From assembly GCA_902801255.1 (NCBI GenBank), contig CADCHO010000001.1, forward strand, positions 51,192 through 115,191: a stretch of DNA of 64,000 nucleotides, in the 5' to 3' direction. The stretch comes from an uncultured Eubacteriales bacterium. Its GTDB lineage: Bacteria > Bacillota > Clostridia > Peptostreptococcales > Anaerovoracaceae. This document shows positions 6,678 to 36,933 of the stretch, in pieces. The position numbers were made by a program, and so were the translations under genes. The number at the start of each line of letters is the position of its first letter. Positions within the stretch are counted from its first letter, which is position 1. Below the pieces are notes generated by a model that saw nothing but the letters and a program-made list of their open reading frames with translations, made no database searches and had not been told where the DNA came from.

Positions 6678-7829
6678 TTAGAGCATCTCGATGAACGCTG
6701 CGATACGTGTATTCAGCTGAGCTACGTCTGCTGTTGAATAGTCAGTCTCTACCATGAAGTAAGGTGTATTCTTCTTCTCGACGCAGAACTTTTCGATCGA
6801 CTTATGCTCTACATTATATGTATGACAAGCCTGAAGTGTCATCTCAAGGACGCCGTCTGCCTTGTACTTATCAATGGTTCTTCCCAGCAGATCATATCTG
6901 TTCGGATTAGGAGTCATGACAGAACATCCGATATTCAGATATCTCTCTGCAAGCGCTCCCCAGATATCCTCAGCATCTTCGTCAACGAGTCTGTCGTACT
7001 GCTTAGCACCTACGCAGTTCTCCATTGCTACTACAACGCCGCCATTGTCCTCGATAGCCTTGATAACCTTCTCAGTTACTCCGCCGATCGGGCATCCTGT
7101 AACCACAATACGAGGCTTCTTTTCGAGCATTTTGCCTTCTGCATATTCTTTTTCGATCTTGTCCTTGATGGACTTGAGTTCATCAACGATAGCGGTACGG
7201 TCGAACTTGAAGTCGCTTCCGTAGAGCAGCTTAAACATATCCATTCCCGAAACAGGGCAAGGATCGTTCTTCATGACATCGATCAGTTCTTTCTTGGCTT
7301 TTCTGATGCTGTTCTCAAGTTTAACAGCCTCACGGATCTTTTCATCTGTGATCTCGATGCCGAACTTCTCTTCAACATAAGCTTTGAGTTTGAGACATTC
7401 CTCTTTGTAGAGAGCAAGTCCCTTTTCGCTCTGGGAGTTAGGAAGATCCATTACGAACACGTCCTTGAACTCACTCATAAGCTCATACATCTTCTTCTTT
7501 CCGTCGCAGGTGTTCTCACCGATAACAATATCACTGAAGTAGAAGAACGGGCACTTGTCGTCCTTTGCAAATCCGTAGCTGGACTTGATCAGTGGACAAA
7601 GGTTGGCAGGCAGATCCTTCTCAGCTGAAGGTATTGTCTCTCCCGATGTCGAACAGAGACTTACCGAAGCCGCTCCTGCTGCCAGAGCAATTTCTCTCGG
7701 AAAATATGTGCAGTAAGCTCCGATTACCGGAATACCCTGGTCTTTAACCTTCTTTACATTTACAAATGCATTTCTTCTTGCTTCTGCGAATTCTTCAAAT
7801 ACCGCAGGCAGTTCTTTAATGATTTCCAT
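6678..7829 (-). CDS. Double-cubane-cluster anaerobic reductase, YjiM-like (2-hydroxyacyl-CoA dehydratase family)
   Basis: The 383-residue product aligns along its length, from memory, with Escherichia coli YjiM and with the double-cubane-cluster protein of Carboxydothermus. Conserved stretches include LCPLIKSSYGF, TCDGKKKMYE, VTGCPIGG, LQACHTYNVE and VETDYST. These relatives of the 2-hydroxyacyl-CoA dehydratase beta subunits bind an unusual [8Fe-9S] double-cubane cluster and are driven by an ATP-dependent activator. The physiological substrate is unknown. The activator partner (YjiL/HgdC type) is not next to it, though the ASKHA-type activator at 16221-18068 is in the window. It has its own promoter region and terminator. 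A ribosome binding site GAGGG precedes the ATG. Confidence 0.9.
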   Translation of the reverse strand: MEIIKELPAVFEEFAEARRNAFVNVKKVKDQGIPVIGAYCTYFPREIALAAGAASVSLCSTSGETIPSAEKDLPANLCPLIKSSYGFAKDDKCPFFYFSDIVIGENTCDGKKKMYELMSEFKDVFVMDLPNSQSEKGLALYKEECLKLKAYVEEKFGIEITDEKIREAVKLENSIRKAKKELIDVMKNDPCPVSGMDMFKLLYGSDFKFDRTAIVDELKSIKDKIEKEYAEGKMLEKKPRIVVTGCPIGGVTEKVIKAIEDNGGVVVAMENCVGAKQYDRLVDEDAEDIWGALAERYLNIGCSVMTPNPNRYDLLGRTIDKYKADGVLEMTLQACHTYNVEHKSIEKFCVEKKNTPYFMVETDYSTADVAQLNTRIAAFIEML

Positions 7830-7962: not shown

Positions 7963-9069
7963 TTACAGATCGGCATTAAGCAGATCCACGTCGATCGGAT
8001 GTCTGCCGAATATACGTGCAGCATCCATAAGAGCCTGCAGATTCTCTGCCGGAGTATCCATAGGAGTCTGGCATCCCGAAGTCAGGGTGAATCCATTTGG
8101 TGAATCCCAAGCCTTTCTGATGCACTCCTTACTTGATCTCAGAACATCCTGAGGTGTACCGAGCCTGATAACATCTACCGGAGGAACGTTGCCCTGGATG
8201 GCCATGTGAGGTCCGAGTATTTCCTTTGCCTCTTCAAGGTCCTCAATATTGTCAAGTCCGAAGCATCCGATTCCCGTATTATTGAGGTCTTCCCACAGCT
8301 TGCGGGAGCCACCGCAAATATGAAGTCCACATCCTCCGCCGTTCTTCTTGATAAAGTCAACATTATGCTGGAAGTACGGCAGTGAGAATTCGCGGTACTG
8401 CTTTACTCTGAGCAGAGATGTTGTACTGACAGGGTCTGCAAAGCCAACGCCTACTCCCATCTCAAGCATTCTCGCGATGTATCTCTCATTATTCTCCGTG
8501 ATGACTTCCATCAGCTGCTTTACCTTATCCGGCTTTTTGATCATTCCGATAAGGAGATTCTCTGTTCCGACTACCATTGCAGCGATAGTGAACGGACCTG
8601 TGACAGTTCCGCTTACAGGCACCTTATCGCCGAGGTTTTCCTTTACCATCTTAAGTCCTTTAAGAATGATAGGAAGCCTTCCGTCCTTGTCGACATCAAC
8701 CAGTTTTGCCTGATCAACATCATCAAGGCTTGCCAGCGCAGGTGTTTCGAGCTGGGCGATATTGTGATCGTAGTACTTGATCTTAGAACCCATTGCTTCT
8801 GCCATGCCTCTGAGCGTTGTCGAGAGGCCTGCACCGTCAGAGTGGAATGTGTCATAAATATACTGTTCCAGCTCAAGCATTTTCTCAGATGAGAAATAGT
8901 AGTCTTTTACTTTAAGTCCGATCATCGGAGCAAGGGTCTCACCAGTATCGATACAGCACATTATACGATCTACTTCTTTGCCCTCACTCAGAAGTCTGTC
9001 CCTCTCTATTGCGGTCAGTTCATCCTTTGGGATTTCCAGCCCGTGTCCATATTGTTCTATTATACCCAT
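7963..9069 (-). CDS. UroD-family (MtaA-like) corrinoid methyltransferase
   Basis: This 368-residue protein has the uroporphyrinogen-decarboxylase fold used by cobalamin-dependent methyltransferases such as MtaA and MtbA. It is not a haem-pathway decarboxylase. The zinc ligands of the methyltransferase branch are present: HIC gives H250 and C252, and the distal C333 is in SGCQTPMDTP. TVTGPF near 155-160 and IQGNVPP near 291-297 are typical barrel segments. The distal part resembles the proteins at 18778-19926 and 11775-12842. Its neighbour is an NhaC-type transporter, which may import its methyl donor. Donor and acceptor are unknown. Confidence 0.85.
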   Translation of the reverse strand: MGIIEQYGHGLEIPKDELTAIERDRLLSEGKEVDRIMCCIDTGETLAPMIGLKVKDYYFSSEKMLELEQYIYDTFHSDGAGLSTTLRGMAEAMGSKIKYYDHNIAQLETPALASLDDVDQAKLVDVDKDGRLPIILKGLKMVKENLGDKVPVSGTVTGPFTIAAMVVGTENLLIGMIKKPDKVKQLMEVITENNERYIARMLEMGVGVGFADPVSTTSLLRVKQYREFSLPYFQHNVDFIKKNGGGCGLHICGGSRKLWEDLNNTGIGCFGLDNIEDLEEAKEILGPHMAIQGNVPPVDVIRLGTPQDVLRSSKECIRKAWDSPNGFTLTSGCQTPMDTPAENLQALMDAARIFGRHPIDVDLLNADL

Positions 9070-9094
9070 GTCTTTTTCCTCTGTTTGAACAAGC

Positions 9095-9127
9095 TATGCC
9101 GGAAGCCCGTATCGGCACTCCGGCATA
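9095..9127 (-). other. Stable intergenic hairpin
   Basis: TATGCCGGA and TCCGGCATA form a 9-base stem with a further GCC/GGC pair inside the loop. It lies between the NhaC-type gene and the downstream methyltransferase gene. There is no T run on the minus strand, so it is more likely an mRNA processing or stabilising stem than a terminator. Confidence 0.5.
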
Positions 9128-9154
9128 TACTCATGGATTTATGAAGGTTTTTTA

Positions 9155-10513
9155 TTAGTTGTTGATTACTTTATTCTCTTTCCAGTCCCACTTGCCCTTG
9201 AGTGTGATGTTCTCATACCAAGGAACGAAATAAGAAACGATAGCGAATGCTGCGAGCAGGAAGAGGTACCAGTTTCTAGGAATGATGTCGAGCGGGCTTA
9301 CTCTTCCTTCGCACATGCTTGCTACTACGAGGAACTGAGCTCCGTAAGGGATGAGTCCCTGCATGATACATGTGAACATGTCGAGGATCGAAGCAGTCTT
9401 CCTAGGGTCGATGTCATACTTCTCGCTGATCTCTCTTGCCATAGGACCGTCAACGATGATAGCAACAGTGTTGTTAGCTGTAGCCATATCTGTAAGAGCA
9501 GCAAGTGCGCTGAGTCCTACCTGAGCAGACTTCTTGCCCTTGAATGTCTTCGACAGCTTCTCAATGAGCCAGTCGAGGCCGCCGTAGTGTTTTGCCATTT
9601 CTGCGATACCGCCGCAGAGCATGGACAGCAGGAATACTTCGATCATTCCCTGGAATCCTTCCCAGATGTTGCCTGCGAAATCCATGAAAGTGATGTCGCC
9701 ATAAGCCATTCCGATGATGCCTGCTGCGAAGATACCGATAGTGAGTACCAGGAATACGTTCATTCCGATAAGTGCAAGTACGAGTACGAGCAGATAAGGG
9801 ATAACCTTTACGAAGTCGAATCCGCCTACCTCGAGAGCCTGAGCTGTTTCAGGTCTTCCGAAGATAACGAGAAGGATGATCGTAACGATTGCTGCAGGGA
9901 AGGAAATCCAGAAGTTAGTTCTGAACTTGTCCTTGAGCTCTACGTGCTGAGTCCTTGTAGCTGCGATTGTTGTATCCGAGATCATTGACAGGTTGTCTCC
10001 GAACATAGCTCCGGAAACTACTGCTGCCATAACGAGCGGAAGGCTGAGTCCTGCCTTGTCTACAACACCGAGTGCGATAGGTACGAGAGCTCCGATAGTT
10101 CCCATCGAAGTTCCTGTAGCTGTTGCAAGGAACGATGCGATGATGAAAAGACCTGCTGTGAGCAGAGATGCAGGGATGATCGATACTCCCAGATTGACTG
10201 TAGCATCAACTCCGCCCATTGACTTTGCAACTGCTGAGAAAGCACCTGCGAGCAGGTAGATCATGAGCATTGCCATTACGTCTTCGTTAGCTGCTCCCTT
10301 TGCAAAGATGCTGAAGTTCTTGTTGATTCCTGCCTTGTAGTTCATTGCAAATGCAACGAGTACTGCGATGAACATAGCAACTACTGCAGGGAACTGATAG
10401 AATGCCATTTCTACGCCCTTGGACTGCAGAATGATTCCTGCGCCGAGGTAGATGATGATGAACACAGCGAATGGCACGAGAGCCAGACCGCTGCTCTTCT
10501 TCTGATTATTCAT
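9155..10513 (-). CDS. NhaC-family sodium antiporter-type transporter
   Basis: The 452-residue integral membrane protein has about eleven to twelve hydrophobic segments and belongs to the Na+/H+ antiporter NhaC family. Typical motifs are TATGTSMGTIGALVPIALG and SGAMFGDNLSMISDTT near residues 130-185, and ATANNTVAIIVDGPMA in the second half. Members often exchange organic acids or other solutes for sodium or protons. AAAGGAG precedes the ATG. It is followed by a MtaA-like methyltransferase gene, so import of a methylated substrate or export of a demethylated product is a reasonable inference, but not shown by sequence. Confidence 0.85.
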   Translation of the reverse strand: MNNQKKSSGLALVPFAVFIIIYLGAGIILQSKGVEMAFYQFPAVVAMFIAVLVAFAMNYKAGINKNFSIFAKGAANEDVMAMLMIYLLAGAFSAVAKSMGGVDATVNLGVSIIPASLLTAGLFIIASFLATATGTSMGTIGALVPIALGVVDKAGLSLPLVMAAVVSGAMFGDNLSMISDTTIAATRTQHVELKDKFRTNFWISFPAAIVTIILLVIFGRPETAQALEVGGFDFVKVIPYLLVLVLALIGMNVFLVLTIGIFAAGIIGMAYGDITFMDFAGNIWEGFQGMIEVFLLSMLCGGIAEMAKHYGGLDWLIEKLSKTFKGKKSAQVGLSALAALTDMATANNTVAIIVDGPMAREISEKYDIDPRKTASILDMFTCIMQGLIPYGAQFLVVASMCEGRVSPLDIIPRNWYLFLLAAFAIVSYFVPWYENITLKGKWDWKENKVINN

Positions 10514-10574
10514 GATGATTTACTCCTTTTTCTTTTAATTGTTTTTCTTTTGTTTTATATTTAACAACCGTGAT

Positions 10575-10602
10575 ATTTTAACGCTTTTGCAGATAAAAGC
10601 AA
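10575..10602 (-). promoter_or_regulatory. Putative promoter of the NhaC-type/methyltransferase unit
   Basis: On the minus strand, TTGCTT (10597-10602) and TAAAAT (10575-10580) are 16 bases apart, about 60 bases before the ATG at 10513. The rest of the AT-rich gap from 10514 to 10745 holds only the terminator at 10684-10709; I see no other element in it. Confidence 0.4.
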
Positions 10603-10683
10603 GTAGATAATGTATATAAAAAAACGATACTGTTTACCCTCTGATGAATAATTGTTGCAATTAACATTTTTTCACAAACAAAA

Positions 10684-10709
10684 ATGGGCACTCTCACAAA
10701 AATGCCCAT
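10684..10709 (-). terminator. Terminator downstream of the Uma2 gene and methyltransferase relic
   Basis: The arms ATGGGCA / TGCCCAT with a 12-base loop are followed on the minus strand by TTTTTGTTTG. It closes the transcription unit coming from the Uma2-like gene. Confidence 0.6.
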
Positions 10710-10745
10710 AGAATAAGCAATGCTTAAAAGCTTGTTAAATAACAT

Positions 10746-10859
10746 TCATTTTTGTATTTTTAGGCCTTCAGGAAGGTGCCCCTTGCGTGCTCCTCTGCTG
10801 AGAGTTGTTGCCGCGTTCATGAACAATATCATCTGTTCTTTTAACGTCTGAGGATCCAT
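10746..10859 (-). pseudogene. Relic of the C-terminus of a UroD-family methyltransferase
   Basis: A 37-codon frame on the minus strand ends in FMNAATTLSRGARKGHLPEG. This lines up with the C-terminal FIFAARKYGRGARKGMLPLG of the methyltransferase at 18778-19926: RGARKG, LP and G are identical and the preceding F..AA is shared. Nothing before it resembles the rest of such a protein; its first codons overlap the end of the Uma2-like gene in another frame, and no ribosome binding site is evident. I read it as the surviving tail of a methyltransferase gene that was deleted or replaced when the Uma2-like gene arrived. A genuine small protein cannot be excluded. Confidence 0.5.
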
Positions 10860-11698
10860 CCCCGGGAACGCTCTATCCTCTCCGCGGCGTCCAGACGATG
10901 TTGCACCACTTTAAAGTCTATAACAAGGTCGCCTCCGGATATGGCGACAGGTATCTCATCATCGAAAGTATATGTATGAGCAAAATCGTTATTTATAAAG
11001 TCATAAACCAGGACGGTCTTCTTTTCGGGATCGACTATCCAGTACTCCTTCACACCCGCACGCATATATCTGTTGAGCTTGATGAGCATATCTACACGTC
11101 TGCTTGAAGGCGACATTACTTCCATAATGAAATCCGGAGCATGCTGGTCAGATTCAGGCTCTTCATTTTCTCTTTCGCACACTACAAGAAGATCCGGCTG
11201 AAGCCTATCTTTTTTTCTGTTATCAAATTCAACATCGAGCGGTGCAATATATGGCATGCAATGATGGCCATGCTCAGCAGCATAATTACTCATAATAGTA
11301 TGGACAGTACCCGCAATTATCTGATGTATTGATGTCGGTGATGCCAGATCATAAATGACACCGTCTATAAGTTCCACACGTATCTCATCCGGAATCTTAT
11401 CCAGATCATCAGTCGTATACTCTCCTTGCCGCCTGACAGGGATCTTATATCTTGGATGTATAGGCAGCCCCTCTTCAGATATCTCATATTTGCCTCCGAA
11501 GGCATCCATCATATCTGTCGTTTCAAGAGCTCCGGTTCCGTACAGATCATAAGCCGGACCAGACTCTCTGACCTGTACCACTTCGTGTCCCAGAATATCT
11601 GTATATATCTCATACCTGCTTTTATCAGCGCGTTTAAGAGCTACCTCGAGAGCCTCCATTGTCTTAAAGTGCGGTCTTCTGGTAGTTCCGGAAAACAC
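10841..11698 (-). CDS. Uma2-family (DUF820) PD-(D/E)XK endonuclease-like protein
   Basis: The C-terminal 190 residues form a Uma2/DUF820 domain of the restriction-endonuclease-like fold. Supporting motifs are RVELIDGVIYDLASP, LQPDLLVVCE (catalytic aspartate), PDFIMEVMSPSSRR (catalytic glutamate) and GVKEYWIVDP. The first 95 residues are an extension seen in some clostridial members. Function of the family is poorly known and many are multi-copy accessory genes. The given start is a GTG without a ribosome binding site; the frame is closed by a stop 10 codons upstream, so the 5' end may be degraded. It is squeezed between the terminator at 11735-11754 and a methyltransferase relic, which points to insertion into the island. 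Confidence 0.75.
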   Translation of the reverse strand: MFSGTTRRPHFKTMEALEVALKRADKSRYEIYTDILGHEVVQVRESGPAYDLYGTGALETTDMMDAFGGKYEISEEGLPIHPRYKIPVRRQGEYTTDDLDKIPDEIRVELIDGVIYDLASPTSIHQIIAGTVHTIMSNYAAEHGHHCMPYIAPLDVEFDNRKKDRLQPDLLVVCERENEEPESDQHAPDFIMEVMSPSSRRVDMLIKLNRYMRAGVKEYWIVDPEKKTVLVYDFINNDFAHTYTFDDEIPVAISGGDLVIDFKVVQHRLDAAERIERSRGWILRR

Positions 11699-11734
11699 TT
11701 TCTGTATCGTTGCCAGTTGAGGCTTTTAAGCACC

Positions 11735-11754
11735 AAAAAAGCGCAGCTTTGCGC
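11735..11754 (-). terminator. Intrinsic terminator of the methyltransferase island operon
   Basis: GCGCA AAGC TGCGC on the minus strand is followed directly by TTTTTT. It lies 21 bases after the stop of the 11775-12842 gene and ends the operon that starts near 19.95 kb. Confidence 0.8.
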
Positions 11755-11774
11755 CACGCTCTCGCCGTTATTTG

Positions 11775-12842
11775 CTATTTCTTTTCTCCGAGCCGTGTCG
11801 GGCCGTACTCTCTGACTGCGTCCATGAATGCGTAAATGTTCTCAATCGGCGCATCAACCGGTATGTCGCAGCCCGTACTCACTATATATCCGTTAGGAGA
11901 ATCCGCACAGTCAGCAATGTTGCGCGTCACCTCTTCACGGACTTCATCAGGGGTCCCGAGCATCATGGTATTTATTGGATCCACGTTTCCGATGATCGGC
12001 ACCTTTCCTCCGGCGAGTTCTTTTGCTCTGAGCAGAGGCACCTTCACATCAACACTTAGCATATCACATCCTGACTCCAGCATTGCTTCTGTGATCTTGT
12101 TGGTGTTGCCGCAGATGTGGTAGCCCATAGCGACACCGTGCTTCTGTATCGCAGGTGCAAGTTCCTTTGTATACGGCAGGACCAGTTCCCTATACATCTT
12201 TTCACTGATGATGTCTCCTGAAGCGACCGGATCGCAGATGAAAATATCCACTCCGCACTTTGCGAATTCCTCGCTGACAGCGATCAGGGCATCAGTAGAA
12301 AAACGCAGCAGCTTATGAACGAGATCAGGTTGTTTTCTTGTTGCTTTAAGGAGCAGCGGTATCGGATAAATGCTTGCCGCGGCTGTCATCGGACCTGTCA
12401 GACTCGCACTTGTTCCTACTACATCTCCCATCTGTTCGACCAGCATTTCGCATGCCGTGCAGCATAGCTCGATCCACGGGTCATTCTTTCTCAGCACACA
12501 TGCAGGATCCAGATTGTCCACATCTTTAAGGTCTTTCAGCACATGCTCAACTATATGCGACGCTGATTTCTCATTGTCCGCAAGCACTGTTCCGCACGCC
12601 TGTCCTATCCCGTGCAGTCCATACTCGATAGACAGCCCGTCAAGTCCAAGCATCTCATACGCGGCTTTCTGAACCTGCACCTGGTTTTCAGCCGACAGCC
12701 TTTTGAATCCGTAATTCTTACCCATGAGTCTTGGACCTACTGAGTCAATCATCGGCATGGCCGGCAGTCTGTCGACTTCTTTACCTTCAAAATAAGCTCC
12801 CAGACGTTCGTTGGATGTCATCTGGTCTTTTCTTTTTGTCAT
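11775..12842 (-). CDS. UroD-family (MtaA-like) corrinoid methyltransferase
   Basis: The 355-residue UroD-fold methyltransferase has complete zinc ligands: H242 and C244 in YHICGNTNKI, and C325 in STGCDIPVDAP. SLTGPMTAA and IIGNVDP are conserved barrel segments, and FICDPVASGDIIS is typical of MtaA/MtbA-type enzymes that pass methyl groups to or from corrinoid proteins. The ATG overlaps the stop of the DUF1638 gene by four bases (ATGA), indicating translational coupling. It is the last gene of the island operon. Which methyl carrier it serves cannot be told, but only one corrinoid protein is encoded in the operon. Confidence 0.85.
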   Translation of the reverse strand: MTKRKDQMTSNERLGAYFEGKEVDRLPAMPMIDSVGPRLMGKNYGFKRLSAENQVQVQKAAYEMLGLDGLSIEYGLHGIGQACGTVLADNEKSASHIVEHVLKDLKDVDNLDPACVLRKNDPWIELCCTACEMLVEQMGDVVGTSASLTGPMTAAASIYPIPLLLKATRKQPDLVHKLLRFSTDALIAVSEEFAKCGVDIFICDPVASGDIISEKMYRELVLPYTKELAPAIQKHGVAMGYHICGNTNKITEAMLESGCDMLSVDVKVPLLRAKELAGGKVPIIGNVDPINTMMLGTPDEVREEVTRNIADCADSPNGYIVSTGCDIPVDAPIENIYAFMDAVREYGPTRLGEKK

Positions 12843-13570
12843 ATGGTCATCCTCATCAGCTGACTGTTTTTCGTTACCGCTTCCCCTTCAAAGTTGAATT
12901 CTTCCTCTATCACAGATGATCCCGGTTTTTTAATAATTATGTCATCATCCCAGCTCCCTGTGATAAGCTTTTGCATCACTTCATTGCCTCCAGGAACTAT
13001 GTGTCTTTCAAGGCAGAAGCGTTCAGCACATTCGTCCGCATAAGCTATGACAGGTTCCATTTCATAACAGCCAGTATCTATAACAGTGACGCTCGTATAC
13101 GAATCGAGCATCTTCTTCATGAGCTTATCGGCTTTTCTTTTTCCGTATTTTGCCAGATAGCTTTGAAACATGTCCAGAAGAGCACCCTCGTCCTTGCTCC
13201 AGCCGCCCGTCAGATACATATGGCCGGCTTTGAGGTAGTTGCGTCTGTCTCTATTGCCGGTACAGAGCATCATATTGACACAGTCATCGAAACGCGGCAT
13301 GGCAAGTATGGCCTTTTCAGTATGCCAGCCCACCGCTCCATTTCCGCAGAGTCCATATCCAAGCATTATAAGATCAGCTCCGGCTTCCTCTGCCCGTCTG
13401 ATTTCGGCCTGTATCACCTCACGCAGCTTATCAGGATCATTATGGTGACCTCTCTCCTGCCACCATATTTCGATATCCCGTATTTCAAAATGATTGAAGG
13501 CGGCGTTGATCTCGTCTTCGATCATTGAACAGGCTATCAGTATCTTTTTTTTATATGCTGACAGATCCAA
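12839..13570 (-). CDS. DUF1638 family protein
   Basis: The 243-residue protein matches the DUF1638 pattern: ACSMIEDEI at the start, WQERGHHNDPDKLREVIQ, LGYGLCGNGAVGW in the middle and MYLTGGWSKD later. The family has no assigned function and often lies beside corrinoid methyltransferase genes. Conserved cysteines in CGNG, in DDCVNMMLC and in DTGCYEME could bind metal. The start is a TTG at 13570 with a near-ideal AAGGAG six bases before it, and there is no ATG in a suitable place. It is coupled to the downstream methyltransferase, which suggests the two products are needed together. Confidence 0.85.
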   Translation of the reverse strand: MDLSAYKKKILIACSMIEDEINAAFNHFEIRDIEIWWQERGHHNDPDKLREVIQAEIRRAEEAGADLIMLGYGLCGNGAVGWHTEKAILAMPRFDDCVNMMLCTGNRDRRNYLKAGHMYLTGGWSKDEGALLDMFQSYLAKYGKRKADKLMKKMLDSYTSVTVIDTGCYEMEPVIAYADECAERFCLERHIVPGGNEVMQKLITGSWDDDIIIKKPGSSVIEEEFNFEGEAVTKNSQLMRMTI

Positions 13571-13582
13571 GTTTTTCTCCTT

Positions 13583-14452
13583 CTATTTGAGTACGATCTC
13601 CCTGAACCTTCCATTGGCAAGCCTGACTCCGATATTTTTTATACATACCTGACCGCCGATCTTGACCTTGCCTCTCATCTGAAGCATTGCCTGCAGGAAG
13701 TCGATCCCCGGTTCAAGTTCGTGCTCTCTGAATTCACCGAATCCGGTATCTATAACAGCAAAAGTAAACTTAGGGCAAAGGAGGAAAATGCAGCTGTCAT
13801 CCATGAGTTCTTCAACCCTTTTGAGGAATGGATGATAGAAATCCTCTACTGCCTGAGTCATGAACTTAGGGCCGAGAAGCTCCGGTGCGCCTGCAGAGTC
13901 AGAGAAGATGAAAACATCAACTCCGGCCTTCTTGCCTGCTTCGATATAAGCAAGCAGCGAATCACCGAGCTTTTCAAAGACTTTTACCATTCCGTCGTGA
14001 TCTTTTCTGTATGCCTTGAAAACCTTTCGCGGCTCCATCAGAGCGTTAAGCATGGTGAACGGTCCGGTAACCTCCAGACAGACAGTCTCACCTTCTGCTT
14101 TCATTTTCGCGCAGGCATCAAGCACTTCCGCCATTCTTCCCTTCGTGACATCGACATCAGGAAGTGCAAGAACGTCATCGCAGGTGCTGCATATCGGATC
14201 CTTTGCTCTCGGTCCGGTATTCGCGTCACCATAGTTGAGTATGGCTCCCATCGCTTCAGCTTCGACAGTACGGCAGAAAGGCAGCAGACAAAAGTCCGCG
14301 CCATCGTGTTCCTTTATAGCTTTTGACAGGATCTGCATGGTCTCACTGTGCATATAGGCATCCGGGAACTCGAGTCCAAGTCCCGATGTCACCTCAGCGC
14401 TGATTCCTACTGAATTGGAATATGTGCATTTGTATTCTCTTATTTCACCCAT
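13583..14452 (-). CDS. Short, divergent UroD-like protein lacking the usual zinc histidine
   Basis: At 289 residues this protein is shorter than the other island methyltransferases and lacks the first 40-50 residues. FCRTVEAEAMGA, EVTGPFT and LGPKFMTQ show that it is closest to the protein at 15188-16207. At the metal site, where relatives have HIC, it reads FLLCPK (C226, no histidine), and the later cysteine appears as GGQVCIKN (C270). Catalysis may therefore be altered, or it may serve as a partner subunit. AAGGA precedes the ATG, so the short N-terminus seems genuine. It is followed 12 bases later by the DUF1638 gene. Confidence 0.7.
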   Translation of the reverse strand: MGEIREYKCTYSNSVGISAEVTSGLGLEFPDAYMHSETMQILSKAIKEHDGADFCLLPFCRTVEAEAMGAILNYGDANTGPRAKDPICSTCDDVLALPDVDVTKGRMAEVLDACAKMKAEGETVCLEVTGPFTMLNALMEPRKVFKAYRKDHDGMVKVFEKLGDSLLAYIEAGKKAGVDVFIFSDSAGAPELLGPKFMTQAVEDFYHPFLKRVEELMDDSCIFLLCPKFTFAVIDTGFGEFREHELEPGIDFLQAMLQMRGKVKIGGQVCIKNIGVRLANGRFREIVLK

Positions 14453-14466
14453 TACATTCTTCCTTT

Positions 14467-15183
14467 TTACTGAAACGGATCTTCACTTAAGACGTCGCTC
14501 ACTCCTGTATCTTTCAGGCTGTCCAGCAGAAGAGCAGTTATCTCCACCCTGCCTGAAGCTGCCGATTTGTTCAGATATTCTCTCAGCGCCTCTTCATCGG
14601 CAAGTCCGCGTGAAACCATATATCTTACAGCTTCAGTGCTTTTTCTGTTTATCGCCAAATCAAGGAATGATTTCTGTCGTTCACGTATGTAACGTTCGAT
14701 CAGGGCCGCATCCTCTGCCGGCGGTGTTGCTGCCGCATTCTCTTCCATGAATGTAAGCACTGCGGTATAGCGTGCTGATGGCGGCAGAATATCGATCTGC
14801 TTTGGGCTGATATGTATAGCTTTCAAACTGCGGCAACCGCTGAGAGATGTACGCGCTGCCTCTTTAAGTGAGAGCGGCAGCCATATTTCTGCAAGAGCAT
14901 GACAGTTCTCGAACATGTCCGTGCCGAGTGTCTCTGTGCCCTCAGGCATCCTGACGCTTCTGAGCTGCCAGCAGTTCTGAAAAAGACCCACACCGATACG
15001 ATCCACCCTTTCAGGCATACGTATCTCTCTGAGCGCATAGCAGTTCATAAAGGCATAGTTGCCTATCTCTCTTACGGAATCCGGAATGTAGAGCCTTTCC
15101 AGATCATCCAGGCCTGCATATGCCAGATCTTTTATCTGCTTCCCGCCGTCTTCTATTCTGATTTCTTTTCCGGAGAAAGCCAT
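14467..15183 (-). CDS. Cytoplasmic leucine-rich-repeat protein (BspA-like) with ankyrin-like tail
   Basis: Residues 25-125 contain four to five BspA/LRR_5 repeats of the form L..I.(M/I)P..V..IG..(L/A)F.NC..L, for example IPDSVREIGNYAFMNCYALR. The last 90 residues look helical and ankyrin-like, with LDLAINRKSTEAVRYMV and SAASGRVEITALLLDSL. There is no signal peptide or anchor, unlike typical BspA surface proteins. It sits inside the methyltransferase operon, 14 bases from one UroD-like gene and 4 from another. A scaffold or interaction role for the methyltransferase complex is possible but is inference. The repeats are clear; function is unknown. Confidence 0.75.
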   Translation of the reverse strand: MAFSGKEIRIEDGGKQIKDLAYAGLDDLERLYIPDSVREIGNYAFMNCYALREIRMPERVDRIGVGLFQNCWQLRSVRMPEGTETLGTDMFENCHALAEIWLPLSLKEAARTSLSGCRSLKAIHISPKQIDILPPSARYTAVLTFMEENAAATPPAEDAALIERYIRERQKSFLDLAINRKSTEAVRYMVSRGLADEEALREYLNKSAASGRVEITALLLDSLKDTGVSDVLSEDPFQ

Positions 15184-15187
15184 TGTT

Positions 15188-16207
15188 TTATTCCGCGAAG
15201 GTCTTTACGGTCTTAAGTACCTGCTGGACGTTGTTCAGCGGTGAACCCATTCCGAGTCCGCATGCAGGAGAGATAATATCCGAACCGTTTGCGTAGCTGG
15301 CTCTTGTCAGCTTGTCCACAGTCTTTTCCTCCTGCATCTCGATCGCAAAAGTGCTCACATTGCCCATGATGACCTTATCCGGAAGATTCTTCTTAGCCTC
15401 TCTGAGCGAGACGACTGCGTCGAAACTGAACGCGTCGCTGTGTATCTTCGCAACCTTGTCGTATACGGATTTCATCTGCCCGCAGATGTGGACTATGGTT
15501 TTTGCACCAGTCTCTTTTACAGCATCTACAACCTGGTTGATATATGTTACCGCATACTCGTCAAAGAACTTCGGTCCCAGGATTTCTCCGGTGCCGCTCG
15601 GATCGGAAAGTGCTATTACATCAGCTCCTGCATCGACCATGGCAAGAGCAAATCTGATGAGGTCGTCCGTTACAAACTGCATGTATTCATGCGCGAGCTC
15701 TCTTTTCTGTCTGAGCTGCTTGTAATATCTTGTCGGCTCACATACGGAGCTTGCCACACTGACGGGGCCAACGATGTTTCCTATTATAGGAACATCCTTC
15801 GTCTCAGCTCTGAGCAGCCTGATAGCATCGAGTGTGACCTTTGCCCTGCCGGCATTAAGATCCATAGGCTTAAGTTTCCCGTAATCCTCTACTGTATCGA
15901 TAGCGTAGCCGGTGACATGCGGCTCAAAGTACTGGGTACCCATGGTGCAGCTCGCGCCGAGCGCCTCAGCCTCGACCGTCATACAGAAAGGTACACCGTA
16001 GTTCTCAAAGCATTCGTTATCGTATATGGCCTTTGCGAGATCTGCCATCATCCTCGCATCTGTATGGGCTTCAGGCAGATAAACTCCGCATACATCCTGC
16101 AGAGCCTTTGTGACCATATTCATCATTCCTCCCGGGCAGATGCATGCAGGCCTGTCAGCCTTCATACCGGAAAGGATCTTTATAAGTCTTTCATTAGCTG
16201 TAGTCAT
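15188..16207 (-). CDS. UroD-family corrinoid methyltransferase
   Basis: The 339-residue UroD-fold methyltransferase has zinc ligands H240 and C242 in IVHICGQMKS, and C316 in ISPACGLGMG. CMTVEAEALGA, NIVGPVS and VIMGNVST are conserved. The motif SPACGLGMGSPLNNV differs from the GCQxPxx form of the other three zinc-containing paralogues, marking a distinct subgroup shared with the short protein at 13583-14452. AGAGGA precedes the ATG. It lies 13 bases after the activator gene. The pair of this protein and its short relative may form a heteromeric enzyme. Confidence 0.85.
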   Translation of the reverse strand: MTTANERLIKILSGMKADRPACICPGGMMNMVTKALQDVCGVYLPEAHTDARMMADLAKAIYDNECFENYGVPFCMTVEAEALGASCTMGTQYFEPHVTGYAIDTVEDYGKLKPMDLNAGRAKVTLDAIRLLRAETKDVPIIGNIVGPVSVASSVCEPTRYYKQLRQKRELAHEYMQFVTDDLIRFALAMVDAGADVIALSDPSGTGEILGPKFFDEYAVTYINQVVDAVKETGAKTIVHICGQMKSVYDKVAKIHSDAFSFDAVVSLREAKKNLPDKVIMGNVSTFAIEMQEEKTVDKLTRASYANGSDIISPACGLGMGSPLNNVQQVLKTVKTFAE

Positions 16208-16220
16208 CTTTTTTCCTCTT

Positions 16221-18068
16221 TTACTTGAAAGTTGGGAATATCAGGCACTCCGAGAGAAGCCTCTCGTAATTGTCTGTTGCTCCAAGCTCAAGATAATCCA
16301 TATCATGAGCAAGTTCTTCCATCTGGCGCTTGACCGTACCGGACATGAGTGCCATATATGCGCCGGTCTTTGAAGTATTGCCTACGTATTCGATGCGGTC
16401 CTCGACCTCAAACGGCAGTATTCCTGTACCTGTAATACTTTCAGCCGGCAGATGAGCTCCGAACTGTCCGGCAATAAGGACTTTATCAAGGTCTGACATG
16501 CCTATGCCGGCTTTTTTCAGAAGCGCCATGAAACCCGAAAGGATCGCCCCCTTAGCGAGCTGCACCTGACGCACATCGCCCTGAGTTATATACAGAGGTT
16601 CTGTGCCGTCTCCGCCTTCTGTCATCCTGAATGATCTCTTTCCGTCTTCATCTACGGCAATATACTTCGACCTGTAATCATCAGCATCAAACTTATCTGC
16701 TTTTACAAAAGCACCTGTCTTTCTGACTATACCTGTCCTCAGCAGTTCTTTAGTGACTGTCAATATGCCGCTTCCGCAGATACCTGCAGGTTCGCAGTCC
16801 CCTATTATCTTGAGATCTATGCCAGCCTCATTGATATGGATATCTTCGATCGCGCCTTCTGCGGCACGCATTCCGGAGCTGATGTTCATACCTTCAAGAG
16901 CCGGACCTGCAGCGCATGAGCACGACATGAGGTGTCCGTCAGCGGCAAGAACGATCTCGCCGTTCGTTCCTATATCTATGAACATCACGTTTCCGTCGCG
17001 GTGTCTCAGATCACATACATATGCGCCGGCAACGATATCCGCTCCGATGTACGCGGATACGGAAGGCAGGCAGTACAGCCTGGCTCCCGGTGCAGCTTTC
17101 AGTCCTATATCCGCAGCCTTTACGTCTTTGGCACGCGCAAAAACAGGAGCGAACGGAGCCTTTCCTATCGGTCTGGCGTCGACACCCATCAGCATGTGCA
17201 TCATGGTGCAGTTTGCACCGACAGTTACCTCGTATATCTGTTCCTGTGTCAGTCCGTGCTCATCGCATATTGACTTCACCATCTTGTTGATGGATCCTAC
17301 GATTGCCTTCTGGAGCTTTTCCCTTCCGTCCTCAGGGTTCTCTATTTCATAAGTGATCCTGGTAAGCACGTCAAGGCCGAAGAACTTCTGGGCGTTTATT
17401 TCCGAAGCATGCCCAAGTTCCTCTCCGGTCGACATGTCAACGAGCGAGCATACAACAGTAGTCGTTCCTATATCTATGGCAACGCCATAAAGCGATCCTG
17501 TCGTATCGCCAGGCTCCAGCGCGATGACTTTGCCATTATGAATCACCGCAGTGTACTCACCAGGCAGCATCGAATGCTCTCTAAGGGCAGTATAGTCAAA
17601 TCCGAGATATCCTGTCGCCCCGTCATGTCCGATGACGGACGTCGCTCCCACCTGATCGATTATCTGATTCTCAAACGGAGTCTGATCCGCGAGTGTCGGT
17701 TTATGGATGGTGACAGGAACTTTTACAATGTCCGGTTCAAATTCGAAATCCGGCATGAAGCCTGAAGCCAGCACATCATGCTTCTTTTCTTTCTGAAGAA
17801 GCTCTATTGTTATATCCGAAGCAGGGTATGTAAGACACGCAAGCCTTACGCCCTGCTCAAGCTCCTCAGCCTTAAGAATTCCGCGTTCGGTCTCTCCAGC
17901 TTCTCCGGCGTCACCCTCAGTGATCCTGACCCTGCACTTTCCGCAGAGTCCCTTGCCTCCGCAGGCGTTATCGATAAACAATCCTGCATCGAGCATTATT
18001 TCCATCAAATTTTTGCCGGAGGCAAATCCATACAGTTTTTCCTCCGGCATTACTTTTAGATTAGGCAT
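16221..18068 (-). CDS. Reductive activator of corrinoid proteins (RACo/DUF4445 type, 2Fe-2S)
   Basis: The 615-residue protein re-reduces corrinoids that have fallen to the inactive Co(II) state, using ATP. The N-terminus is a plant-type [2Fe-2S] ferredoxin domain with C36, C42, C45 and C78 (CGGKGLCGKC, then RLACLT). The central and C-terminal parts carry an actin-like ASKHA ATPase fold, with GVAIDIGTTTVVC near residue 195 and VMFIDIGTNGEI in the middle. It ends in the RACo C-terminal domain (VLIAGQFGAHLP). It belongs to the RACo/AcsV-like DUF4445 group rather than the 4Fe-4S RamA type. It is the only activator in the window, placed next to the single stand-alone corrinoid protein. Confidence 0.92.
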   Translation of the reverse strand: MPNLKVMPEEKLYGFASGKNLMEIMLDAGLFIDNACGGKGLCGKCRVRITEGDAGEAGETERGILKAEELEQGVRLACLTYPASDITIELLQKEKKHDVLASGFMPDFEFEPDIVKVPVTIHKPTLADQTPFENQIIDQVGATSVIGHDGATGYLGFDYTALREHSMLPGEYTAVIHNGKVIALEPGDTTGSLYGVAIDIGTTTVVCSLVDMSTGEELGHASEINAQKFFGLDVLTRITYEIENPEDGREKLQKAIVGSINKMVKSICDEHGLTQEQIYEVTVGANCTMMHMLMGVDARPIGKAPFAPVFARAKDVKAADIGLKAAPGARLYCLPSVSAYIGADIVAGAYVCDLRHRDGNVMFIDIGTNGEIVLAADGHLMSCSCAAGPALEGMNISSGMRAAEGAIEDIHINEAGIDLKIIGDCEPAGICGSGILTVTKELLRTGIVRKTGAFVKADKFDADDYRSKYIAVDEDGKRSFRMTEGGDGTEPLYITQGDVRQVQLAKGAILSGFMALLKKAGIGMSDLDKVLIAGQFGAHLPAESITGTGILPFEVEDRIEYVGNTSKTGAYMALMSGTVKRQMEELAHDMDYLELGATDNYERLLSECLIFPTFK

Positions 18069-18088
18069 TACGTTATTTTCTCCCGGTC

Positions 18089-18742
18089 CTATTCTACTCC
18101 GCAGAGCCTCTTTGCTACTTCAACAGCCTCGACCGCATTTCTTGAATAACCGTCAGCGCCGATATCCTCAGCATACTTCTGAGAAATAGGGCTTCCGCCT
18201 ACCATTACCTTGATGCTGTCTCTTATGCCCTGCTCTTTGAGTTTGTTGATGACTTCCTTCATGCCAGGCATGGTCGTAGTCATGAGTGTGGACATCATGA
18301 TAAGGTCTGCATCGACCTCCTTAGCCTTCTCAACGAAACTGTCGAGAGGTACGTCTCTTCCGAGGTCGAACATCTCGAAACCTGCAGTCTCCATCATGAT
18401 CTTGACCAGGTTCTTTCCGATATCGTGAGTGTCTCCCTCGACTACACCGATTACAGCCTTCTTTGCTTCACCTACCGATGCATCCTCAGGAAGGTGCGGT
18501 CTCAGAACATCAAGGCCGGCATACATTGCGTCTGAGCAAAGCAGCAGGTCTGTTACGAAATACTCTTCCTGATCGTACATTTCACTCGCACGGTTCATGC
18601 CGTCTACGAGACCGTGAAGGATACCATCGAGTGCATCATAGCCTTCTTCAATATATTCTTCACATACGTCAGCAATCTCTTCGTCCTCCATCTCAAATAC
18701 CATGTCGGACATCTTCTGCAGAAGTTCTTCTTTAGTTGCCAT
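18089..18742 (-). CDS. Corrinoid (B12-binding) methyl-carrier protein, MtaC/MtbC-like
   Basis: The 217-residue protein carries a methylcobamide. Residues 1-88 form the helical cap domain. The Rossmann B12-binding domain follows, with the base-off/His-on motif D104-x-H106-x-x-G109 (EGDTHDIGKNL), GFEMFDLGRDVP and MVGGSPIS. AAAGGAG lies ahead of the ATG. It is the only free-standing corrinoid protein in the window, so the several UroD-type methyltransferases of the island presumably share it or use others elsewhere. It is flanked by a full methyltransferase upstream and the reductive activator downstream. Confidence 0.95.
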   Translation of the reverse strand: MATKEELLQKMSDMVFEMEDEEIADVCEEYIEEGYDALDGILHGLVDGMNRASEMYDQEEYFVTDLLLCSDAMYAGLDVLRPHLPEDASVGEAKKAVIGVVEGDTHDIGKNLVKIMMETAGFEMFDLGRDVPLDSFVEKAKEVDADLIMMSTLMTTTMPGMKEVINKLKEQGIRDSIKVMVGGSPISQKYAEDIGADGYSRNAVEAVEVAKRLCGVE

Positions 18743-18777
18743 TATAATACATTCTCCTTTATGTTATCAGCCGTTTA

Positions 18778-19926
18778 TCAGGCCTTATTCATTACTACTT
18801 CGTTTGCAGCTTCCTCAACAATGCCAAGCGGAAGCATTCCCTTGCGAGCACCCCTGCCGTATTTGCGGGCAGCAAAGATAAATGCGTCGAAATTCTCGCG
18901 GGAAGTTCCAATCGGTACCTGGCATCCTGTTCCGAGTGTATAACCGTTTTCAGCCTCAGAGCCATTGATAATGCACTGCTTACATGTCTCGATTACGTCA
19001 TCGATAGTTCCGTTGAGCATTACATCTACAGGAGCAACGTTTCCGACAAGTCCGAATACAGGACCCATTTTATCTCTTGCGTCAGCAAGGTTTTCCATGT
19101 TATCTACACTAAAGCTTGATACCTTGAGTTTCAGCATATCATCCCACAGTGGTGATGTCTTTCCGCAGATGTGGATGCCAGGCTTTTTACCCAGAGTCTG
19201 CGTGAGACCTTCAACCAGGTACTCAAGCCATGGATGTGAGAATTTCCTGTAGTTTCTCTTGCCCAGAATGTCAGCACAGCTTATAGGATCGCAGATGGTG
19301 CATCCTCCGCCGCCGAATTCATCCGCGAACATCTCCGCATAAGCTACCGTATAATCAACAGTCCACTTAAGAAGATCGTTCAGTTTCTCAGGATTTCTTA
19401 CTGTATCCCTGAGTATCATCTCAACCGGTCTTATAAGAGAAGCATTTGTGAATGGGCCGGCAACAGGCATTGCGATACCCATCTCCGGGAATGCCATCTT
19501 GAGGTCGATTCCTCTCTGGAGGACGGCAAGGAATACCGGATTCTTTTTCGGATTATCCTTCATCAGCTCAGGAAGCATTGAATAGTCTGTAAGTACAGGC
19601 TTTATCACGCGATCGATACCGACTTCAGGAAAATATATCTCAGAGCCCACAGCCTGCGCCATTGTCCTCAGTCTGAGACCGGAAGCAAGTCCGCCGATGT
19701 TAAACTCTTCCTGCCTTCTTTTGATCACATCTATGTGAACTTTTAAATCATTTCTCCATTGCGCAGTTGTATAGCCGAAGATGTTAGCCATGGCTTCTTC
19801 GTTGCTCTGCAGCGAGAACGGAATATGATCTACTGTTTCGCCTGCCGCATACTTCTGCATTCTTTCACCCGCAGACATAGTCTCGGGATATTTTTCCATT
19901 TCTTTTTTCAGTTCTTCATAAGTCAT
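18778..19926 (-). CDS. UroD-family corrinoid methyltransferase, first gene of the island operon
   Basis: The 382-residue UroD-fold methyltransferase has zinc ligands H252 and C254 (IHICGKTSPL) and C335 (GTGCQVPIG). PVAGPFTNAS and LVGNVAPVD are conserved. The C-terminal tail AARKYGRGARKGMLPLG is longer than in the other paralogues and matches the relic at 10746-10859. Its position directly before the corrinoid protein suggests that it is the substrate-specific methyltransferase (MT1) for this carrier, which is inference. The start has GAGGG upstream. The promoter region at about 19.96 kb contains a perfect TATAAT. Confidence 0.87.
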   Translation of the reverse strand: MTYEELKKEMEKYPETMSAGERMQKYAAGETVDHIPFSLQSNEEAMANIFGYTTAQWRNDLKVHIDVIKRRQEEFNIGGLASGLRLRTMAQAVGSEIYFPEVGIDRVIKPVLTDYSMLPELMKDNPKKNPVFLAVLQRGIDLKMAFPEMGIAMPVAGPFTNASLIRPVEMILRDTVRNPEKLNDLLKWTVDYTVAYAEMFADEFGGGGCTICDPISCADILGKRNYRKFSHPWLEYLVEGLTQTLGKKPGIHICGKTSPLWDDMLKLKVSSFSVDNMENLADARDKMGPVFGLVGNVAPVDVMLNGTIDDVIETCKQCIINGSEAENGYTLGTGCQVPIGTSRENFDAFIFAARKYGRGARKGMLPLGIVEEAANEVVMNKA

Positions 19927-20391: not shown

Positions 20392-21894
20392 TTATAATCC
20401 CAGCTCGTCTATCTGCCTTTTTATCTCTATATCTCTTTCATCCAGAAGCAATTCTTTGTTATGCCGGTAGTATTCATCACAGCCATATATACTAATAAAA
20501 GAAACGCAGTCCGGATCAGCTGTAAGCTCCGTAACAGCCATCAGCATCTCCTTGTCTTCACCCCAGCATTTTTCAACAAACCTCAGCATATTGTCCATTC
20601 TGCTGCATGTAAATGCTGCTTTTTCATTATGAGAGTCAACGAGACCGCCGTAAGCTGAACGGATGGCTTCATAAGAAGACTCATAATCAGGTGAATCTTT
20701 AATAAGATCTGCCATCTCATAAAGACATGAAACAGTCCTGAGCATGCGGTCTGATTCCTCACGGGTAAGTGAATGAGCTTTCAGTCCTGCCCCGCGTCTG
20801 GTTACGATCCGGTCGATGAGTTTTTTCATGTTGTCCTCAGGTATAATATCCTCAGAGGCAGCAGCTCTATACTCTTTAACGCATAGTCTCACAGACTCAA
20901 GCAGGCGGCGTTCTTCCATCCGTTCACGCACATCCTCTTTCACGCTGTTCAGCAAAAGACCGATGAGTGTGTATACTTCATCAAATCCTGCCTGGGAAGC
21001 TCTTTCTTCCATTCCTTCAGGATCTTCCCCATTCAGAATTGCCTCGACAGGATACTCTTCCCTGTATTTATTGAACAGACTGAGATATACGTTAAATTCC
21101 TTTGCAGTGCTGTGGTTCTGAAGGTACTGAATTATAAGATCTTCATCAGCCTCGATGCCGTTCTTCTCATAAAGAAGCAGCATCTTACTGAGGTCTTCCC
21201 ACCCTCTCGGAGTCACGATCGACTTGCCGCTGACAGTAGTCTCAACGTGGTAGAAATGATTTCTCTTGGTCTGAAGGAACGACATCACAGCCGGATGCAT
21301 GTGAACGGCATATGCATACTCCTTCCACGCTTCGAAGTCCGGCTCGACTTCGATTTTTTTCATTCTGTCGAGCGTAACTATATCAAACTCCCTGGCGGAA
21401 TCATTGTATTCGGACGGATTTCCCGCAGTGACGACTATCCAGCCCTCAGGCAGCCTGTGTCCGCCAAAGACCTTGTACTGCAGGAACTGCATCATGAGCG
21501 GTGACAGCGTTTCTGATACGCAGTTTATCTCGTCCAGGAAAAGGATGCCCTGCTTTACGCCGGTAGTCTCCATAAGATCATATACCGATGCGATTATCTC
21601 ACTCATCGTATATTCAGTGACATCGCATTCTGTTCCGCCGTAGACTTTCCTGCTGATGAACGGAAGTCCGATAGCACTCTGGCGTGTGTGATGTGTCATG
21701 GAATACGATATGAGTCCTATTCCGAGCTCTGATGCAAGCTGTTCCATTATGGCAGTTTTACCTATGCCCGGCGGACCGATCAGAAGCACCGGTCTTTGCT
21801 TTTCGACGGGTATCATGTAATTGCCCAGATCATCTTTAGTAAGATACGCCTTAATAGCATTTCTTATCTGCTCTTTTGCTTTGCTTATGTTCAT
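20392..21894 (-). CDS. MoxR-type AAA+ ATPase
   Basis: The 500-residue protein has an N-terminal MoxR AAA+ domain. Walker A is GPPGIGKTA, Walker B is ILFLDEINC, sensor I is VVTAGNPSE, and the C-terminal half is a helical region of unknown role. MoxR ATPases remodel or metallate partner proteins together with VWA-domain proteins. The VWA partner gene lies directly upstream. AAGGA before the ATG at 21894 supports this start rather than the GTG at 21930. It is the last gene of the riboswitch-led operon. Similar ATPase/VWA pairs occur as CobS/CobT of the aerobic cobaltochelatase, but no CobN is present here. Confidence 0.88.
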   Translation of the reverse strand: MNISKAKEQIRNAIKAYLTKDDLGNYMIPVEKQRPVLLIGPPGIGKTAIMEQLASELGIGLISYSMTHHTRQSAIGLPFISRKVYGGTECDVTEYTMSEIIASVYDLMETTGVKQGILFLDEINCVSETLSPLMMQFLQYKVFGGHRLPEGWIVVTAGNPSEYNDSAREFDIVTLDRMKKIEVEPDFEAWKEYAYAVHMHPAVMSFLQTKRNHFYHVETTVSGKSIVTPRGWEDLSKMLLLYEKNGIEADEDLIIQYLQNHSTAKEFNVYLSLFNKYREEYPVEAILNGEDPEGMEERASQAGFDEVYTLIGLLLNSVKEDVRERMEERRLLESVRLCVKEYRAAASEDIIPEDNMKKLIDRIVTRRGAGLKAHSLTREESDRMLRTVSCLYEMADLIKDSPDYESSYEAIRSAYGGLVDSHNEKAAFTCSRMDNMLRFVEKCWGEDKEMLMAVTELTADPDCVSFISIYGCDEYYRHNKELLLDERDIEIKRQIDELGL

Positions 21895-21942
21895 ATAATC
21901 GTCCTTACTGAGCCGAAGCTTTACTAACACGGTTAAATGGTA

Positions 21943-23750: not shown

Positions 23751-23762
23751 ACCTATCCCCTT

Positions 23763-24473: not shown

Positions 24474-24492
24474 TTAGTTTTTAAATGTTCTG

Positions 24493-25224: not shown

Positions 25225-25226
25225 AG

Positions 25227-26776: not shown

Positions 26777-26801
26777 GAATATCTCTCCCGTCTTTACTCT
26801 C

Positions 26802-29244: not shown

Positions 29245-29252
29245 TTTACGGA

Positions 29253-30248: not shown

Positions 30249-30287
30249 TTTCTGATCCTCTTTACATATCTAAAATATTTTATATTG

Positions 30288-36930: not shown

Positions 36931-36933
36931 AAT

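Follow-up and report, generated by a model that had tools for sequence, protein, structure and literature searches.

A probable type 1 mlp gene cluster for methyl-selenium or methyl-sulfur transfer, with unusual additions, at the end of a cobalamin gene island of an uncultured Anaerovoracaceae bacterium

The mlp gene clusters (MGCs) have been described as a family whose core comprises at least two UroD-type Mlp proteins, a corrinoid carrier and an activase, with no folate methylase (Kountz & Balskus, bioRxiv 2023, PMC10418091); Clostridium drakei is among the species for which that preprint names a type 1 cluster. Here, we analyze an operon located in a 64-kb stretch (positions 51192-115191 of contig C1, referred to below as the window) of the draft genome (2.24 Mb, 78.5% complete) of an uncultured Anaerovoracaceae bacterium. 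In our judgement, this operon is probably a conserved type 1 MGC for methyl-selenium/sulfur transfer, equipped with unusual additions; the estimate includes membership of the family, and the substrate is less sure. The family itself has already been described (PMC10418091); the extra features found here are additional Mlp2-like copies, added parts and a position at the end of a conserved B12 gene block. Few genes have been assigned to the salvage of selenium and methyl-sulfur in anaerobes of the gut, and the locus offers a testable gene set, conserved in bacteria which, according to record titles, come from the sheep and goat gut.

According to the preprint, Mlp2 is the sole Mlp with an experimentally supported substrate: one representative (ClMlp2) methylates selenide from methylcobalamin and has some sulfide activity. 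Approximately 10% of the MGC encoders were assigned to methyl-sulfur work, and the gene order given for C. ljungdahlii is Mlp1-Mlp2-carrier-Mlp3-activase (all PMC10418091). The same order was found in the C. drakei locus that we used for comparison (L131). In the literature searched, which left many journals outside, nothing beyond this preprint was found on the term 'mlp gene cluster', nor was any paper linking DUF1638 to MGCs.

Other described systems share some of these components. The SdmABC dimethylselenide system of Methanococcus, as far as it is set out in the available parts of PMC10418091 and PMC11097638, likewise combines a corrinoid protein with corrinoid methyltransferases and proposed methyl-selenide donors, but it comes from a methanogen, for which a coenzyme M (CoM) methyltransferase is proposed, whereas the window comes from a bacterium. 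The B12-dependent methionine synthase support genes of Phaeobacter (PMC5764234, available part) resemble the operon in that DUF1638 goes together with an activase of the RamA/RACo type, the corrinoid protein again being a separate one; there, however, separate pterin-binding and homocysteine-methyltransferase proteins are present, while here we find an MGC, and no pterin-binding domain was found in the genome. Finally, the soluble CoM methyltransferases (SCMTs) MtaA, MtbA and MtsA have the UroD fold and the HxC...C motif in common with UroD-type proteins of the operon.

The genes of the operon all lie on the minus strand, from 19926 down to 6678. The first is UroD5 (18778..19926; PF01208, 7.6e-45), followed by a corrinoid methyl-carrier protein (18089..18742; PF02310 and PF02607; TIGR02370 205 bits, under the cut-off of 215), a RACo/Ram-type corrinoid reductive activase with a 2Fe-2S domain (16221..18068; PF14574, PF17651, PF00111 and Fer2; AcsV model 440 bits, under the cut-off of 800), UroD4 (15188..16207; PF01208, 2e-73), a small, faster-evolving leucine-rich repeat (LRR_5) protein (14467..15183; PF13306, 2.1e-23), the short protein UroD3 (13583..14452; PF01208, 1.5e-20), a DUF1638 protein (12839..13570; PF07796, 1.7e-37) and UroD2 (11775..12842; PF01208, 1.3e-67). 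The intergenic gaps over this part measure 35, 20, 13, 4, 14, 12 and -4 bases. Then come a Uma2-family open reading frame (ORF; 10841..11698; PF05685, 5.6e-28), an NhaC-type membrane transporter (9155..10513; PF03553, 3.5e-28), UroD1 (7963..9069; PF01208, 1.3e-73) and a double-cubane-cluster reductase, also called dicubane cluster protein (6678..7829; NF040772 513 bits, cut-off 350), separated by gaps of 76, 327, 85 and 133 bases. The reductase also matched PDB 6eno (E 3.9e-76), an entry entitled 'Dehydratase family protein' which we take to be a double-cubane protein.

A sequence-only reading of this DNA had listed five UroD-family proteins, one B12 carrier, one RACo activator, DUF1638, an NhaC-type transporter and an LRR protein. 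All of these are borne out by Pfam matches on one strand, and the view that several UroD-type methyltransferases share one carrier and one activase is supported. The reading had overlooked the Uma2-like and double-cubane genes, and its tally of five UroD proteins and one carrier is correct for the operon, but not for the window, where a sixth UroD and another corrinoid domain are joined in one protein (53647-55401).

With respect to the published description of type 1 MGCs, the operon contains an Mlp2 (UroD2) and an Mlp3 (UroD4) that group with the C. drakei proteins. Its genes run in one direction with no divergent gene between them and no gap above 2 kb (the largest is 327 bases), and no tetrahydrofolate (H4folate) methylase lies within 20 kb (PF00809 had 0 matches in the genome). 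Predicted His-Cys-Cys metal ligands occur in UroD1, UroD2, UroD4 and UroD5; the deviation seen in UroD3 (Mlp1) is one that the description allows. The Mlp1-3 clades, the carrier, the Ram/RACE activase, the dicubane protein and the selenocysteine trait are all shared with type 1 MGCs, in contrast to the three Mlp2-like paralogues, DUF1638, the LRR protein and the linked cobalamin island, which distinguish the window from the clusters of the preprint.

The assignment of the UroD proteins comes from two trees. In a carefully built 70-row tree (20 loci, the window and MtaA, with most of the very-long-branch loci of the larger tree left out), three groups were obtained: Mlp1-like (20 rows, support 100/100), Mlp2-like (28 rows, 100/100) and Mlp3-like (21 rows, 92/84, not starred). 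Each group contains one of the three proteins from C. drakei, which lie beside UroD3 (Mlp1), UroD2 (Mlp2) and UroD4 (Mlp3), respectively. UroD2 and C. drakei Mlp2 share a 12-row clade (100/100), while UroD1 and UroD5 form two further Mlp2-like branches, each a subclade of its own. These main groups recurred, with 39, 47 and 49 rows, in a 139-row FastTree built from UroD ORFs of 220-480 aa in 46 of 99 loci; three odd rows stood next to the group of 49. MtaA, the sole SCMT in the 70-row tree, joins Mlp2 on a long branch, unlike in the preprint topology, and its attachment is uninformative; MtbA, MtsA, CmuA, OdmB and VdmB are outside both trees, and in the fetched loci no sequence could be recognized as belonging to the non-selenium Mlp3 clade (e.g. 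that of H. thermocellum). Identity to the best C. drakei protein was 57% for UroD4, 46% for UroD2 and 44% for UroD3, and lower for UroD1 and UroD5 (see below). Identity to MtaA (4ay7) amounted to 31% for UroD4, 27% for UroD1, 26% for UroD2, 26% (partial) for UroD3 and 23% (partial) for UroD5. The sequence-only reading had held that its interpretation would fail if the proteins belonged to well-studied, substrate-assigned clades; this is partly so, since they do fall in described clades, of which, according to the preprint, only Mlp2 has an experimental substrate.

UroD4 is nearest to methylcobalamin:CoM methyltransferases (NF004889, 393 bits, cut-off 244), a model matched at E <= 1e-60 in 18 of 291 genomes across the class. 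With the MtaA and MtbA equivalog models, it scored far under the cut-offs (209 of 400 bits and 208 of 600 bits, respectively), and its acceptor would presumably be other than CoM.

The HxCG motif, in the form HIC...C with a later Cys, is common to UroD1, UroD2, UroD4 and UroD5. It resembles the zinc site of thiol methyltransferases, and the four proteins are predicted on this ground to bind zinc; in the preprint, the His-Cys-Cys site is read as a soft S/Se site (PMC10418091). The 'different active sites' proposed in the sequence-only reading are therefore confined to UroD3. Since the motif points to S/Se substrates, and the same core constitutes a published family, the claim that the system is unassigned and its donor wholly unknown could not be upheld. 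The donors are likely to be methyl-selenides or thioethers, to judge from the motif. We also considered an O-demethylase or a CdmB/chloromethane type for UroD1-5 and rejected it: four of the five carry a thiol-type motif, and the CdmB structure 9rui matched UroD1 weakly (E 1.9e-4). Among the three proteins searched (UroD1, UroD3 and UroD4), 9rui was not found for UroD4 at E <= 0.001, nor for UroD3 at E <= 1.

UroD3 lacks the His of the HxC motif and ends ahead of the C-terminal Cys. In an alignment of 49 Mlp1 sequences, UroD3 together with 48 from a set of 61 non-redundant named ones, Cys226, Pro227 and Lys228 (CPK) as well as Cys270 (GQxC) are invariant. Both Cys226 and Cys270 are present in 75/75 named Mlp1 proteins, of which only 4 have the His, and in a broader sample that includes class-level relatives the two Cys residues occur in 39/39 and the His in 10/39. 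Since the relocated Cys also occurs in each of the ten His-bearing rows, its move seems to predate the loss of the His. Most of the near Mlp1 proteins are thus without the zinc His, whereas in the preprint non-HCC sites are presented as an exception of 'several' Mlps1 (PMC10418091). The AlphaFold model of UroD3 (pLDDT 94.1) has MtaA (4ay7/4ay8) as its best PDB fold match. That UroD3 might be a pseudogene was rejected: its reading frame is consistently short (289-316 aa) and 72-98% identical in 16/16 same-genus loci (a divergent locus, L032, with 46%, is excluded), which, together with the confident model, argues against a decayed copy.

Conservation of the locus was analyzed in stretches fetched around the 18 DUF1638 matches outside the source genome, 17 of them in the same genus and one in another family (L021). 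The order UroD4-LRR-UroD3-DUF1638 was retained in 16/16 same-genus loci, again with L032 excluded, and the grouping is therefore not due to chance; a neighbourhood search for UroD, DUF1638, RACo and LRR genes had been proposed in the sequence-only reading. L032 contains a divergent cluster in a different order (UroD4 58%, RACo 61%, UroD3 46%). Of the 16 loci, 12 have the carrier gene complete on the contig, and in these UroD5 lies upstream of the carrier. Several contigs are short, and the remaining counts among the 16 loci are lower bounds: UroD1 (91% or more) in at least 11, NhaC in at least 9, UroD2 in at least 5, the double-cubane gene in at least 4 and Uma2 in at least 3. Some of the frames appear broken, UroD2 (L030) and DUF1638 (L038) each being read in two frames through sequencing error or decay.

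When named genomes were scanned with aligned relatives of UroD4, 522 loci were obtained, from which the best 80, many of them on short contigs, were kept, a choice favouring near relatives; they comprise 18 same-genus and 62 other loci, and the window's own record is possibly not among them. Classes were assigned with profiles made from rows labelled by best window match, and double-cubane, transporter and LRR genes were counted at BLAST scores of at least 55 bits. Mlp2, Mlp3, carrier and activase occurred together in 65 of these best 80 loci (15/18 same-genus and 50/62 others), and Mlp1 in 75. The nearest come from genomes that bear the names 'uncultured Clostridiales' or 'Mogibacterium sp.' in the database, and several titles name the sheep or goat gut; NCBI taxonomy places Mogibacterium within Anaerovoracaceae. 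Genomes of the RUG series presumably come from the rumen.

The source genome encodes selenocysteine synthesis, the trait of the selenium group of MGCs: contig C17 contains SelA, an adjoining tRNA-Sec and a SelD frame (L138:1384-2574) whose in-frame TGA (GGUG) resembles that of SelD selenoproteins, and the organism very likely makes selenoproteins. The sequence-only reading had seen neither an MttB nor a pterin methyltransferase, and neither was found in the 78.5% complete genome, where PF06253 (MttB), PF00809 (pterin-binding; control positive in 13/14) and PF01717 (MetE-type) each gave 0 matches; MtaB was not searched genome-wide. This is not the profile of MttB-type or pterin-linked demethylation. 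PF00809 was absent from 32/36 genomes of the genus (completeness 59-99%), including 17/18 with the DUF1638 marker. Marker and absence are not associated (Fisher p 0.60), the genus being mostly without PF00809; a known enzymatic route for methyl groups to folate is consequently not supported.

These observations are consistent with a mechanism in which the operon probably strips methyl groups from selenium or sulfur compounds. UroD1, UroD2 and UroD5 (Mlp2-type) and UroD4 (Mlp3) would act as zinc His-Cys-Cys enzymes and exchange methyl groups between S/Se atoms and the carrier, which would alternate between Co(I) and methyl-Co(III). At least one of them would take the methyl group off a methyl-selenide or thioether and another would pass it to a thiol or selenol acceptor, with the three Mlp2-type enzymes widening the donor range. 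UroD3 (Mlp1) may use a relocated soft-ligand site or serve as a partner subunit. The RACo protein would re-reduce the carrier with ATP, possibly helped by DUF1638, and the double-cubane protein, often found in such clusters, may be a selenium-linked reductase. Double-cubane matches were present in 4/18 same-genus and 17/62 other named loci.

DUF1638 (PF07796) was detected in 19/60 related genomes: 18/36 in the genus (the source genome included) and 1/24 in other families. In the named loci, DUF1638 was present in 18/18 same-genus and 7/62 other cases, and the LRR protein in 18/18 and 1/62; both are fixed MGC partners in one genus. Cys14, His43, Cys75 and Cys97 of DUF1638 are invariant in 22 sequences, which suggests a putative metal or cofactor site. 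A fold-based assignment was tried and abandoned (AlphaFold pLDDT 89.4): Foldseek gave no reliable match, with one hit at E <= 0.001 (template-modelling (TM) score 0.23) and a racemase at TM 0.35 (E 0.02). A PHROGs search with DUF1638 returned nothing. The available part of PMC5764234 reports that DUF1638 and a RamA-like protein are both required for B12-dependent methionine synthesis in Phaeobacter, and that of PMC12478193 that DUF1638 and RamA-like proteins are more abundant on N-osmolytes in Ruegeria. Given the occurrence of DUF1638 in L021, outside any MGC, the protein is a general corrinoid companion. The matches to RACo and DUF1638 in that locus are good, and UroD is represented there by no more than one weak piece; it is not this operon.

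The LRR protein is possibly a scaffold. By eye, its C-terminal part resembles ankyrin-type helices, with no Pfam ankyrin match at E <= 0.01. NhaC-type genes adjoin UroD1-type genes in several loci, and the transporter is a candidate importer. A working role for the Uma2-like ORF was rejected (it was found in 3/16 genus loci), and this ORF is probably outside the system.

The operon forms the end of an approx. 49-kb cobalamin island, whose parts from 20392 to 55401 described here lie on the minus strand. Upstream of the operon is a pair of genes encoding an AAA+ MoxR-type and a VWA-like (DUF2201) protein (20392..23283), possibly a metal-insertion or assembly machine; the MoxR-type gene occurs in at least 9 of the 16 same-genus loci, several contigs ending ahead of it. 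Next is a block of anaerobic-type cobalamin biosynthesis and Btu uptake genes with a few others (23295..51178; HemC, CobA/HemD, CbiJET, CbiD, CbiC, CobT/U and CbiP models, CbiK, other names from translations). The island includes two CbiK genes, and a cobalamin riboswitch (51319..51512; RF00174, 115 bits) precedes the CbiK-Btu-Cob genes. Beyond it are a homocysteine S-methyltransferase with no folate domain (52405..53622; PF02574, 7.1e-73, the only family found), which is a candidate methyl acceptor enzyme, and the sixth UroD, which forms one protein with a corrinoid domain (53647..55401; PF01208, PF02607 and PF02310). The cobalamin block between operon and fusion was retained in 5/5 genomes examined, with some genes missing or inverted in some.

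Wherever the fusion occurs (17 genomes), its UroD part reads HHAD at the position of HxCG, and the site is therefore not thiol-type. The fusion is present in 17/36 genus genomes, among them 16 of the 18 that bear the DUF1638 marker (Fisher p 6e-7, not corrected for kinship). A PF02574 homologue directly adjoins it in 9/17 and lies one gene away, on the opposite strand, in 8/17. A 186-aa Cys-rich protein (55415-55975), with no NCBIfam match at E <= 1e-10, travels with the fusion. Core methionine synthases that lack folate domains have been described (PMC7857596); MesA is presented there as homologous to MetE, and PF02574 does not appear in the available part of that text.

Several observations weigh against the assignment to a type 1 MGC for methyl-selenium/sulfur transfer. 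In the available text of the preprint, the published activity is that of one Mlp2 with selenide, at low kcat, together with cited genetics of Methanococcus voltae on dimethylselenide (PMC10418091). Its text, figures not included, makes no mention of 'DUF1638', 'NhaC' or 'leucine-rich'. The Mlp1/2/3 labels were derived from C. drakei, gene order and motif, and not from direct comparison with C. ljungdahlii; UroD1 and UroD5 have only 32% and 30% identity to C. drakei Mlp2, and UroD5, with its partial 23% to MtaA, lies under the preprint threshold of >25% to a characterised SCMT. DUF1638 is not MGC-specific, being located in L021 (G047:C87) approx. 230 bases from a PF00809 domain, and the cluster is dispensable, since 18/36 genus genomes are without the marker. 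As selA occurs in 54/60 relatives, including genomes without the cluster, the selenocysteine machinery alone does not point to the operon. GrdA gave no match in the genome (GRDA search), and none in the controls either.

The proposal of the sequence-only reading, a multi-substrate catabolic demethylation with an unspecified donor that feeds central C1 metabolism, draws on the three Mlp2-like paralogues, the transporter and the linked B12 synthesis block. It appears improbable, as no H4folate-methylase-type domain, and hence no visible route to folate C1 units, was found in the source genome or in 32/36 of the genus, and four of the five sites are thiol-type. A narrower form of the preferred explanation, selenium-independent demethylation of thioethers (methylthio compounds) for methionine salvage, accommodates the zinc motif, as well as the methyl-sulfur role given to approx. 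10% of MGC encoders and the limited sulfide activity of ClMlp2 (PMC10418091); moreover, with no PF00809 or MetE match in the genome, any methionine synthesis would have to obtain its methyl groups in a different way. The selenocysteine machinery and the double-cubane protein, however, fit the selenium group, and we regard this form as unlikely.

Compatible with the preferred explanation is a methyl supply in which the operon or the fusion passes methyl groups to homocysteine via the PF02574 enzyme, giving folate-free methionine synthesis. The constant vicinity of PF02574 and fusion, the presence of the fusion in 16 of its 17 genomes together with the DUF1638 marker, the lack of PF00809 in 17/18 marker genomes and the lack of a MetE match in the source genome are in its favour. 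Nevertheless, the fusion could serve the PF02574 enzyme alone, without the operon, the co-occurrence is uncorrected for kinship, the marker is unassociated with the absence of PF00809, the genome is incomplete and methionine may be taken up; such a supply is, on balance, a tentative and rather unlikely proposal. All of these alternatives overlap with the preferred explanation, and their probabilities do not add up to one. Doubtful, too, is a combined proposal in which both of the following hold: (i) Mlp1 is a re-wired enzyme, whose third metal ligand moved from the lost C-terminal loop to the GQxC strand and whose zinc His is gone in most near lineages, so that the site for selenide or thiolate consists of Cys alone, and (ii) the island of Mogibacterium-like gut species constitutes a folate-free methyl economy, in which methyl groups from Se/S (and other) compounds reach homocysteine via corrinoid proteins, with DUF1638 and LRR as fixed accessories.

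An Rfam scan of positions 5000-24000 gave no credible match, and no tandem repeats were found in 6000-20500. A CobW-like GTPase gene, named from its sequence (e.g. L134:6338-7291), lies near the MGC in 24/62 non-genus and 0/18 genus loci. Downstream of the operon, at 2286-6489, there are genes for an amino-acid-type ABC transporter (SBP_bac_3) and for an M20-like peptidase, the latter named by eye, and the ABC genes recur at this position in some of the relatives.

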